Assembly (NCBI RefSeq): GCF_005047635.1
Contig: NZ_SUKC01000004.1
Coordinates: 1-64,000 of the forward strand
DNA length: 64,000 bases
From: Arthrobacter sp. CAU 1506
Lineage (GTDB): Bacteria; Actinomycetota; Actinomycetes; Actinomycetales; Micrococcaceae
Direction: 5' to 3'
Below are positions 26,926 to 59,016 of the stretch, piece by piece. The position numbers were made by a program, and so were the translations under genes. Positions within the stretch are counted from its first letter, which is position 1. Every line of letters starts with the position of its first letter. The notes under the pieces were generated by a model. The model was not told the DNA's origin, made no database searches, and saw only the letters and a list, made by a program, of their open reading frames with translations.

Positions 26926-26985
26926 TCAAACAGTAGTTCGCGTGGCCTCGCCGCGGCAGCTAAGAAGGAGCATTCCTGCGCGCAC
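26926..26985 (-). CDS. Putative leaderless leucine leader peptide of leuA
   Basis: A 19-codon frame beginning at GTG, reading [19 protein letters not shown] and ending TGA, 83 nt before leuA. It contains three consecutive leucine codons (CTC CTT CTT). The -10 TAGTGT (26992-26997) ends exactly 6 nt before the GTG, so the peptide would be translated from the 5' end of a leaderless mRNA. An internal ATG at 26973 is another possible start. Leucine-codon leaders before leuA are a known type of attenuator; that this one is functional is inference. The leuS leader at 58981-59004 is closely similar. Confidence 0.68.
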
Positions 26986-26991
26986 AATTTC

Positions 26992-26997
26992 ACACTA
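26992..26997 (-). promoter_or_regulatory. -10 box of the leuA leader transcript
   Basis: TAGTGT on the minus strand, 6 nt before the GTG of the leucine leader peptide. No good -35 is seen. The same region must serve the divergent M13 peptidase gene, which starts at 27054. Confidence 0.5.
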
Positions 26998-27053
26998 GCA
27001 CGGTGCGTAGGATGTGAGGGAAACGCTGACACAACTATGAAATGAGGCGCCAC

Positions 27054-28994
27054 ATGAGCCGCTCCGGAATCGTATTGTCCAACGTCGACCCGGCCGTCCG
27101 CCCGCAGGACGACCTCTTCCGGCACGTCAATGGCACGTGGCTCGCGGTGACCGACATCCCGGACGACCGCGCCTTGGAAGGCTCCTTCACCGCCCTGCGC
27201 GATGCGTCCGAAGAGGCCGTGCACGCCATCATCGAAGACGCCGCCAAGCATCCCGACCCGGCCAGCCCGGCCGGCAAGATCGGCATGCTGTATGCCGGCT
27301 TCATGGACACCGCAACGGTCGAGGCCAAGGGCTTCTCCCCGTTGGCCGAGCAGTTTGCCGCCGTTGCCAAAATCTCCGACCGGGACGGCCTGCGTGAGGT
27401 CATCGGGGCCTTCAGCCGTAGCGGCGCGGCCTATCCGTTGGCCTTCTTTGTCAACAACGACGCCGGCGACCCCACCCGCTACGTGATCTACCTGTATCAG
27501 GCCGGGCTCGGCCTGCCGGACGAGGCCTACTACCGCGAGGAGGAATTCAGCCCCATCCGCGACGCCTACCTGGACTACGCCGGGAAGATGCTGCAACTGG
27601 CCGGCTTTGATCCGGCACAGGCCGACGCAGCGCTGGACCTGGAGCACAAACTGGCGGCCGGCCACCTGGATAAGGTTTCCTGCCGCGACCCGCAGCAGAC
27701 CTACAACCTGCGCACCGCCGAACAGGTGGAAGCGGTGGCCGGATGGATGCCGGAATGGCTGGCCGCACTGGGGCCGGAAGCAGCCGGCGCTGCCGATATG
27801 GTGGTCTGCCAGCCGGAATTCCTGCGCACGCTGGACGCATTGCTGGACAGCGAACCTCTGGAAGCCTGGCAGGCCTGGCTGCGCTTGCAACTGCTGACGA
27901 CGGCGGCACCCTACCTTCACGACGAGGCGGTGCAGACCCACTTCGGCTTCTACGGCCGTACGCTGAGCGGTACTCCGGAACTGAAGGAGCGGTGGAAGCG
28001 CGGGGTGGCGCTGGTGGAAGGTGCCCTCGGCGAAGCCATCGGGGAGGAATACGTGGCCCGGCATTTCCCGCCGACGCACAAGGCACGAATGGAAGAACTG
28101 GTCGGCAACCTGCTGGCAGCCTACCGGGAAAGCATCTCCGGCCTGCCATGGATGACCGAGGCCACGATCGCGAAGGCGCTGGAGAAGCTGGCAGGCTTCC
28201 GGACCAAAATCGGCTACCCGGAAAAGTGGATCGACTATTCCAGCTTCGTGCCGGTGGAGGATGTCTGGGCCAATGTCCACGCCTCCAATGAGTTTGAGGT
28301 CCGCCGCAATCTGGCCAAATTGGGCGGTCCTATCGACGACGCCGAGTGGCACATGACCCCGCAGACGGTCAACGCGTACTACATGCCGACCATGAACGAA
28401 ATCGTCTTCCCGGCCGCGATCCTGCAGCCGCCCTTCTTCGACGCCGACGCCGATGCTGCCGCCAACTACGGAGCCATCGGCGCGGTCATTGGCCACGAAA
28501 TCGGCCACGGCTTCGACGACAAAGGCTCGCAGTACGACGGCACCGGCGCGCTGCGGAATTGGTGGTCGGACGAAGACCGGGCTGCCTTCGAACACCTCAC
28601 CGGCAAGCTGGTGGCGCAATACGCGGCGCTCAGTCCGGCGGAGGCTCCCGGCAGCACTGTCAACGGCGAACTCACCCTGGGCGAGAACATCGGCGACCTC
28701 GGCGGCCTGGCCATCGCCTACCGCGCCTACCAACTGAGCCTGCAGGGCGAGGAAGCCCCGGTGGTCGACGGGCTGACCGGCAGCGAGCGGTTCTTCTACT
28801 CCTGGGCCGAATGCTGGCGCCAGAAGATCCGCTCCGAAGAGGCGGTGCGCCGGCTGGCCATCGATCCGCACTCCCCGAACGAATTCCGCTGCAACCAGGT
28901 GGTGCGCAACCTGGATGCCTTTCACGACACGTTCGGAACGGCCGAGGGCGACGGACTCTGGCTCGACCCGGAGCAGCGGGTCCGGATCTGGTAG
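27054..28994 (+). CDS. pepO: M13-family (neprilysin-like) metallopeptidase
   Basis: A 646-residue zinc endopeptidase. The active-site motif HEIGH starts at His481 (HEIGHGFDD), the downstream ENIGDLGG supplies the glutamate ligand, and NAYYMPTMNEIVFPAAILQP is the typical substrate-site block. The C-terminus ends in the family pattern RVRIW. No signal peptide is visible, so it is probably cytoplasmic, as for many bacterial PepO proteins. The ATG has GAGG 6 nt upstream. It is divergent from leuA and convergent with the LCP gene, with only a 6-nt gap. The symbol is by family similarity. Confidence 0.92.
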   Translation: MSRSGIVLSNVDPAVRPQDDLFRHVNGTWLAVTDIPDDRALEGSFTALRDASEEAVHAIIEDAAKHPDPASPAGKIGMLYAGFMDTATVEAKGFSPLAEQFAAVAKISDRDGLREVIGAFSRSGAAYPLAFFVNNDAGDPTRYVIYLYQAGLGLPDEAYYREEEFSPIRDAYLDYAGKMLQLAGFDPAQADAALDLEHKLAAGHLDKVSCRDPQQTYNLRTAEQVEAVAGWMPEWLAALGPEAAGAADMVVCQPEFLRTLDALLDSEPLEAWQAWLRLQLLTTAAPYLHDEAVQTHFGFYGRTLSGTPELKERWKRGVALVEGALGEAIGEEYVARHFPPTHKARMEELVGNLLAAYRESISGLPWMTEATIAKALEKLAGFRTKIGYPEKWIDYSSFVPVEDVWANVHASNEFEVRRNLAKLGGPIDDAEWHMTPQTVNAYYMPTMNEIVFPAAILQPPFFDADADAAANYGAIGAVIGHEIGHGFDDKGSQYDGTGALRNWWSDEDRAAFEHLTGKLVAQYAALSPAEAPGSTVNGELTLGENIGDLGGLAIAYRAYQLSLQGEEAPVVDGLTGSERFFYSWAECWRQKIRSEEAVRRLAIDPHSPNEFRCNQVVRNLDAFHDTFGTAEGDGLWLDPEQRVRIW

Positions 28995-29000
28995 CGCCGG

Positions 29001-58860: not shown

Positions 58861-58913
58861 TGTGCTTGCCTCGTCCTCTTGTCTGTACTGCGCACTGGCC
58901 TGACTCCCCTAGA

Positions 58914-58943
58914 CACACAAAAGCCCCTCAACATCGGAGGGGC
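58914..58943 (-). terminator. Putative leuS attenuator terminator
   Basis: On the minus strand GCCCCTC (58937-58943), a 7-nt loop, GAGGGGC (58923-58929), then TTTTGTGTG. It is a typical intrinsic terminator lying between the leader peptide and leuS, 54 nt before the GTG. A second hairpin, GCCGCTG-N22-CAGCGGC (58946-58981), precedes it, and leader codons GCTCCTT could instead pair with GAGGGGC. Confidence 0.75.
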
Positions 58944-58980
58944 GGGCCGCTGAAGCAGGGCGTGGACCCCGCGGCAGCGG

Positions 58981-59004
58981 CTAGCTAAGGAGCAGTGCGA
59001 ACAT
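58981..59004 (-). CDS. Putative leaderless leucine leader peptide of leuS (MFALLLS)
   Basis: A seven-codon frame, ATG TTC GCA CTG CTC CTT AGC TAG, with three consecutive leucine codons. TAAAGT (59011-59016) lies 6 nt before the ATG, so it should be translated from a leaderless 5' end. An intrinsic terminator follows within 60 nt, before leuS. A ribosome stalled at the leucine codons would be expected to alter RNA folding. The geometry and the CTCCTT string match the leuA leader peptide. Function is inference but the arrangement is specific. Confidence 0.75.
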   Translation of the reverse strand: MFALLLS

Positions 59005-59010
59005 GGCACC

Positions 59011-59016
59011 ACTTTA
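59011..59016 (-). promoter_or_regulatory. -10 box of the leuS leader transcript
   Basis: TAAAGT on the minus strand, 6 nt before the ATG of the MFALLLS leader. No clear -35 is visible; this region is just downstream of the glpK stop codon. Confidence 0.5.

Follow-up and report, generated by a model that had tools for sequence, protein, structure and literature searches.

By comparing a 64,000-nucleotide stretch of Arthrobacter sp. CAU 1506 DNA (hereafter the window) with related genomes, we found that its leuS gene is probably preceded by a ribosome-mediated transcription attenuator, gated via a first hairpin (P1), and its leuA gene by a LEU element that has no terminator. Leucine-responsive control is the likely function of both, since both are leaderless-looking leucine leaders with conserved leucine codons, and in physiological terms "small regulon" appears a fair description of the two genes. 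The single attenuation scheme that the initial annotation had proposed for them was not borne out, however: leuS has a hairpin followed by an intrinsic terminator, whereas a consensus scan of 26700-27200 gave no minus-strand intrinsic terminator after the leuA leader.

The two leaders and their starts

Both short frames with leucine runs are found on the minus strand where they had first been annotated, and the sequence confirmed a -10-like hexamer 6 nt before each start. For leuS, the hexamer TAAAGT (59011..59016) precedes the frame MFALLLS* (58981..59004; ATG TTC GCA CTG CTC CTT AGC TAG), whose ATG at 59004 lies 144 nt upstream of the start of the leucyl-tRNA synthetase gene (56371..58860) and would coincide with, or immediately adjoin, the 5' end of the RNA. 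The last leucine codon, CTT at 58987..58989, is the proposed sensor codon. P1 (58946..58981), with the arms GCCGCTG (58981-58975) and CAGCGGC (58952-58946), has its start 8 nt downstream of this codon's first base and is followed, after 2 nt, by the intrinsic terminator hairpin GCCCCTCCGATGTTGAGGGGC (58923..58943), TTTT and the rest of the U-rich tail TTTTGTGTGT (58913..58922). In many leuS leaders of Micrococcaceae, the conservation of this latter stretch (58922-58913) extends beyond its U-tract.

For leuA, likewise on the minus strand, the hexamer TAGTGT (26992..26997) is found 6 nt before a GTG at 26985, which begins a frame of 19 residues ending with a stop at 26926 (26926..26985) and opening GTG CGC GCA GGA ATG CTC CTT CTT AGC TGC, with the leucine codons CTC CTT CTT at 26962..26970. 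The core helix of the LEU element (26905..26956) pairs CCGCGGCGAGG (26956-26946) with CCTCGCTGCGG (26915-26905). Further downstream are GAAAAGG (26855..26861), a candidate ribosome-binding site judged by its sequence and its alignment among leuA upstream regions, and the 2-isopropylmalate synthase gene leuA itself, from the start ATGCGAAACGC (25091..26842). A distance of approximately 25-37 kb between leuA and leuS, as in the window, recurs in seven genomes (G038, G062, G122, G136, G099, G058 and G045), so the neighborhood looks ancestral and not like an operon.

The spacing of the -10 hexamer proved to be conserved beyond chance. With starts picked by the leucine run alone, i.e. without any -10 or terminator rule, TANNNT was found 6 or 7 nt upstream of the start in 50 out of 55 leuS leaders and in 43 out of 49 leuA leaders, while every other spacing from 0 to 20 was represented by 0-2 sequences each. 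The spacing of 6 in the window and its conservation in relatives would fit leaderless transcription of the leuS leader. Conservation of the frame and its leucine codons, which the initial annotation had named as the support to look for, was indeed found when upstream regions of Micrococcaceae relatives were aligned. Short leucine-rich frames are easily found in high-GC DNA, and the two leaders might in principle be chance frames near promoters with no part in regulation; with the frame, the spacing, the codon choice and covarying hairpins (see below) all conserved, we consider this extremely improbable.

A common sequence element had also been suggested, consisting of CTCCTT, TAGCT and TGCCGCGG. 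All three are present in both window leaders, but as a conserved element they were rejected, occurring in 21, 17 and 1 of 68 leuS leaders, respectively. The single leuS leader with TGCCGCGG is that of the window itself, where the string falls inside the first hairpin, in its variable portion, compared to 19 out of 54 leuA leaders; its presence in both window leaders is a coincidence.

Structure, distribution and read-out of the leuS leader

Upstream regions were collected for 150 leuS loci, namely from 30 family genomes (L001-L030), 80 collection records (L031-L110) and a further 40 family genomes (L111-L150). Ten loci were not located by tblastn and four had less than 150 nt upstream, leaving 136 usable ones. 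A leader plus terminator was found by rule at 72 of these, and at 61 out of the 77 usable Micrococcaceae loci, near-duplicates included; with near-identical leaders counted once, the 72 amount to 68 distinct leuS leaders. The leader was present in 19 of the 28 Micrococcaceae genera examined and not detected in nine. Records in which it occurs include, among others, Arthrobacter, Pseudarthrobacter, Glutamicibacter (a weak match), Nocardioides, Nonomuraea and Actinomadura; the Kocuria, Yaniella, Acaricomes and Microbacterium records examined gave no such leader.

The covariance model R1, built from leuS leaders, matched 23 of the 40 loci L111-L150 at E<=2e-4, and one more at 0.015, with eight matches outside its training set (L116, L122-L125, L137, L147 and L149). 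It also matched 29 of the 80 collection records at E<=0.1, where training members match by construction, and, with this threshold too, 129 out of 296 genomes from the class, counts across genomes here ignoring kinship between unevenly related genomes. Searches over 40 genomes were run with strict filters. Among the best 30 R1 loci of the matches listed, leuS adjoined in 29 and one was without a resolved gene. The window's own genome yielded the leuS locus, plus two matches at E 2.5 and 9.3. Rfam 15 gave no match in the window at gathering score, and none at E<=0.5 in L216, L243, L151 and L281.

The 71-nt stretch of P1 and terminator has a folding energy of -41 kcal/mol (z -4.05), which none out of 200 shuffles equaled. 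In an alignment of 55 leuS leaders (A1), 93.2% of the cells pair and two-sided changes occur at 10 of the 12 consensus pairs; the covariation score of 0.275, against 0.114 in shuffled alignments, was reached by 0 of 500 shuffles and destroyed by sliding the partners. The intrinsic terminator seen before leuS in the window is thus backed by covariation of terminator and P1 in relatives. The layout is rigid as well: a distance of 8 nt from the first base of the final leucine codon to the start of P1 is found in 52 of the 68 leaders, and a gap of 0-2 nt between P1 and terminator in 61.

As we picture it, transcription of leuS RNA would start at or next to the first codon of the leader, on which a ribosome would initiate without an upstream binding site. 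With charged tRNA-Leu in short supply, the ribosome would stall at the last leucine codon, and its front edge, approximately 13 nt ahead, would cover the 5' arm of P1, 8 nt past the first base of that codon; a 26-nt occlusion centered on the codon is also employed in PMC13236596, as far as the available part of that paper goes. Blocked P1 would render the abutting terminator less effective, letting RNA polymerase read into leuS. With plentiful leucine, the ribosome would reach the stop codon and leave, P1 and the terminator would form and transcription would end.

The read-out step is the weak link of this model. A classical antiterminator, too weak or too kinetic to appear in equilibrium folding, is a possibility to which we give a minority share of our confidence. 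It is encouraged by the antiterminators reported for Streptomyces leuS in PMC1262725 and by a Corynebacterium glutamicum antiterminator mutation that acted far more weakly than calculated (PMC11857589), both taken from the accessible portions of these papers. Masking the 5' arm of P1, moreover, raised the upstream pairing of the terminator 5' arm from 0.18-0.26 to 0.38, which is the right direction, but weak. Against it, equilibrium folding of the 68 leuS leaders under five stall masks gave on average no antiterminator above shuffled controls: under the stall mask, this pairing averaged 0.38, compared to 0.51 in shuffles that preserve base composition only, not dinucleotides. The real value exceeded the shuffled one in 16 out of 68 leaders, and in 15 out of 67 in the mask set that leaves out L056, for which a wrong terminator had been picked. 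Furthermore, inspection of A1 by eye revealed no conserved partner for GCCCC upstream, and the terminator is predicted in either state, at mean probabilities of 0.98 and 0.97. Since on average no antiterminator stood out above shuffles and the terminator is predicted to fold in either state, we favor a joint action of P1 and the terminator, in which the ribosome would gate P1. In many of the stalled-state folds listed, the 3' arm of P1 pairs, largely through G-U, with the U-rich tail, a pairing that could form only once the polymerase has passed.

The proposed sensor codon and isoleucine leaders before cimA

The last leucine codon was found to be strongly biased. It is CTT in 54, CTA in 8, CTC in 4 and CTG in 2 of the 68 leuS leaders, and CTT in 39, CTA in 11, CTC in 2 and CTG in 2 of the 54 leuA leaders, i.e. 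CTT or CTA in 62 and 50, respectively. In the background, counted from 8,423 leucine codons in 137 leuS or leuA coding pieces, CTG makes up 59.6%, CTC 23.9%, CTT 6.0% and CTA 1.7%. CTT or CTA dominates in 15 out of 16 mapped Micrococcaceae genera (p 3e-16, treating genera as independent), and among the 38 leuS leaders from a class-wide sample the last codon was CTT in 35 and CTC in the other 3. The exceptions are CTG in two relatives from the window's own genus (L002 and L005) and CTC in four leuS leaders. The simplest reading of the sequences is that leucine is sensed at the last leucine codon of the leuS leader, since a ribosome halted at this position would cover the 5' arm of P1, and one stalled earlier hardly would.

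Certain leuS leaders are poor in leucine, e.g. MSALELSQPR, MFAHSLS and MHPASSLV. The latter two, MHPASSLV being from Glutamicibacter, have a single leucine codon; this is CTA in the MHPASSLV, MNSQHNLA and MNPKRNLV leaders, where little else is retained. The leuS leader of L020 is without an ATG or GTG start. Altogether, loss of most leucine codons or of the start, with the terminator kept, was observed in L002-L006, L020, L040, L042 and L119. Such leucine-poor or startless leaders may possibly have lost or changed their sensing.

Another 39 R1 matches, picked among those listed as second or weak matches or as belonging to other families, were distributed over cimA (13), leuS (10), ilvB (9), leuA (3), a leuA of another type (1) and loci with no recognized gene (3). 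The 13 cimA loci mostly had poly-isoleucine leaders, e.g. VQRTAIIIP*, and the gene was identified as citramalate synthase by TIGR00977, above cut-off in six out of six tested. From 12 of these poly-isoleucine leaders an alignment (A2) and a model (R2) were built. Two-sided changes occur at 8 of the 17 pairs of A2, with a covariation of 0.336 compared to 0.178 in shuffled alignments, and by eye P1 starts 8 nt after the last isoleucine codon, or 9 with an extra G, a layout like that of leuS. With E<=0.1 as the threshold, R2 had matches, some of them at ilvB, in 216 out of 296 genomes of the class. All of the best 30 R2 loci among the matches listed had cimA, as did 17 of 20 further ones picked across families among these matches, the remainder being two ilvB loci and one without a resolved gene. 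The genome of the window itself gave no R2 match. In the class, leaderless leaders that mostly encode isoleucine runs, each followed by a hairpin and a terminator, are widespread upstream of cimA (L241-L245, L251, L254, L258, L264-L267, L276, L281-L310, L313, L314, L316-L322 and L324-L331). A similar leader and terminator also precede a small protein in L249 and L253, which has a weak match, below cut-off, to an ACT domain (PF13291).

The correspondence between codon and gene, with leuS at the leucine-leader R1 loci and citramalate synthase at the poly-isoleucine R2 loci, supports the attenuation model. The codon bias recurs too: ATT closes the isoleucine run in 23 of 25 distinct cimA leaders that fit the pattern, while ATC accounts for 40 out of 46 codons earlier in the run, and ATT makes up 10.6% of the isoleucine codons in the genes. 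Against the rule, five of the 30 cimA loci (L302-304, L306 and L309), which are outside the pattern and not counted, end with ATT ATC.

A rare-tRNA (isoacceptor) reading of CTT and CTA, an idea prompted by theory for E. coli (PMC1183508, seen in its available part), was weakened by ATT at the same place in the isoleucine leaders. The U or A ending could instead reflect a need of the RNA at the nucleotide level and not slow decoding, an explanation that we regard as plausible but rather doubtful. One tRNA reads both ATT and ATC, and likewise CTT and CTC, so the choice of isoacceptor cannot explain why ATT is last in the counted cimA leaders. Speaking against a nucleotide-level need, CTA substitutes in 8 leuS and 11 leuA leaders, and the predominance of ATC earlier in the isoleucine runs confines the effect mostly to one codon.

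Our literature search, covering mostly open-licence texts and few subscription papers, revealed no poly-isoleucine attenuator before cimA, and the word "citramalate" is absent from the main text of a 2024 survey of 50 bacterial genomes; the isoleucine attenuator thus appears to be unreported. Tentatively, and with more doubt than conviction, we propose that a single leaderless attenuator design has been reused across the bacterial class for leuS (leucine), cimA (isoleucine) and ilvB. In this design the -10 would lie 6-7 nt before the start, the sensor codon would be followed at 8 nt by a hairpin with a terminator abutting it, and the position of the ribosome would gate the two-hairpin terminator directly, with no competing antiterminator. 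If true, the design would gain a new member in the isoleucine switch before citramalate synthase, whose gene matters for isoleucine supply and metabolic engineering, and a last sensor codon ending in U or A would be a rule not described before. The rigid geometry makes two points of the mechanism testable: the identity of the leucine-sensing codon and the need for an antiterminator.

The leuA element and known systems

Almost all leuA genes examined carry the leader, a leucine run being found by rule in 58 out of 60 genomes, and with a -10 in 57, although a few of the starts, lying far upstream, are doubtful. In an alignment of 38 of the 54 leuA leaders (A3), 98.9% of the 379 core-helix cells are paired; two-sided changes occur at three of ten pairs, a number reached in 36 out of 500 shuffles, and the covariation score was reached by none of 500. 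The leader would be of the same leaderless kind as that of leuS, joined to a covarying helix and, there being no terminator, most likely acting on translation or through a Rho-type or post-transcriptional step. A different type of leuA, as judged by 2-isopropylmalate synthase models, was found in L280 (G229:C27), preceded by MTNLLLT* and a hairpin with a terminator-like repeat, i.e. a terminator attenuator and not a LEU element.

The available text of PMC1262725 predicted the LEU element in 2005 in most Actinobacteria covered, and suggested that it is a protein-binding RNA to which the leader peptide is incidental, arguing from its conservation and from cited S. coelicolor mutants that do not fit classical attenuation of leuA. 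We find this unlikely: the leaderless geometry (43/49), the in-frame leucine runs and the CTT or CTA at their end (50/54) point to translation. The codon argument is not decisive, in that CTT-rich runs might also serve RNA pairing. The element of PMC1262725, as described there, includes a pseudoknot and a base stem that pairs leucine codons with the ribosome-binding site, while our comparison with the window rests on the core helix.

The pair of leucine leaders before leuA and leuS is already known from Streptomyces. Attenuators of leuS were predicted in two Streptomyces in 2005 (PMC1262725), and in S. lividans TK24 the accessible part of PMC8079986 describes a leaderless LeuL1 peptide of 15 residues before leuA, without a typical terminator, and LeuL2, MRAVRLLLSEPR, before leuS, followed by a hairpin and a U-run. 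The leaderless pair of the initial annotation therefore survives as a conserved, leaderless-looking start geometry, but not as a novelty. LeuL1 shares with the window the LLLSCRGE core, the absence of a terminator and the place before leuA. LeuL2 shares the leucine leader, which in the window is leaderless-looking, the hairpin and the intrinsic terminator before leuS, and R1 recovered loci with its exact peptide MRAVRLLLSEPR (L227 and L236), so the two leuS elements belong to the same family. They differ at the end of the frame, which in the window stops where P1 begins (TAG CCGC) and in LeuL2-type leaders reads on (GAG CCG CGC TGA), and in the antiterminator, which PMC1262725 reports for Streptomyces leuS and which has no support above shuffles in window-type leaders. 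The range of the leuS attenuator now takes in Micrococcaceae and other actinobacterial groups in addition to Streptomyces. Neither the codon rule nor the distance rule was found in the available text of PMC1262725 and PMC8079986, and the fresher parts beyond the known pair are the rigid build of the leuS leader and the sister switch before cimA.

More distant relatives are the attenuators of C. glutamicum ilvBNC and M. tuberculosis ilvB1, which likewise combine a branched-chain amino acid leader peptide with a terminator but concern a different gene and have a defined antiterminator; CUU is named as control codon in C. glutamicum ilvBNC (PMC11857589 and PMC13236596, in the parts available). 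The mycobacterial polycysteine frames are likewise short sensing frames upstream of a gene but an analogue only, with cysteine codons and, according to the accessible text of PMC1262725, no conserved terminator.
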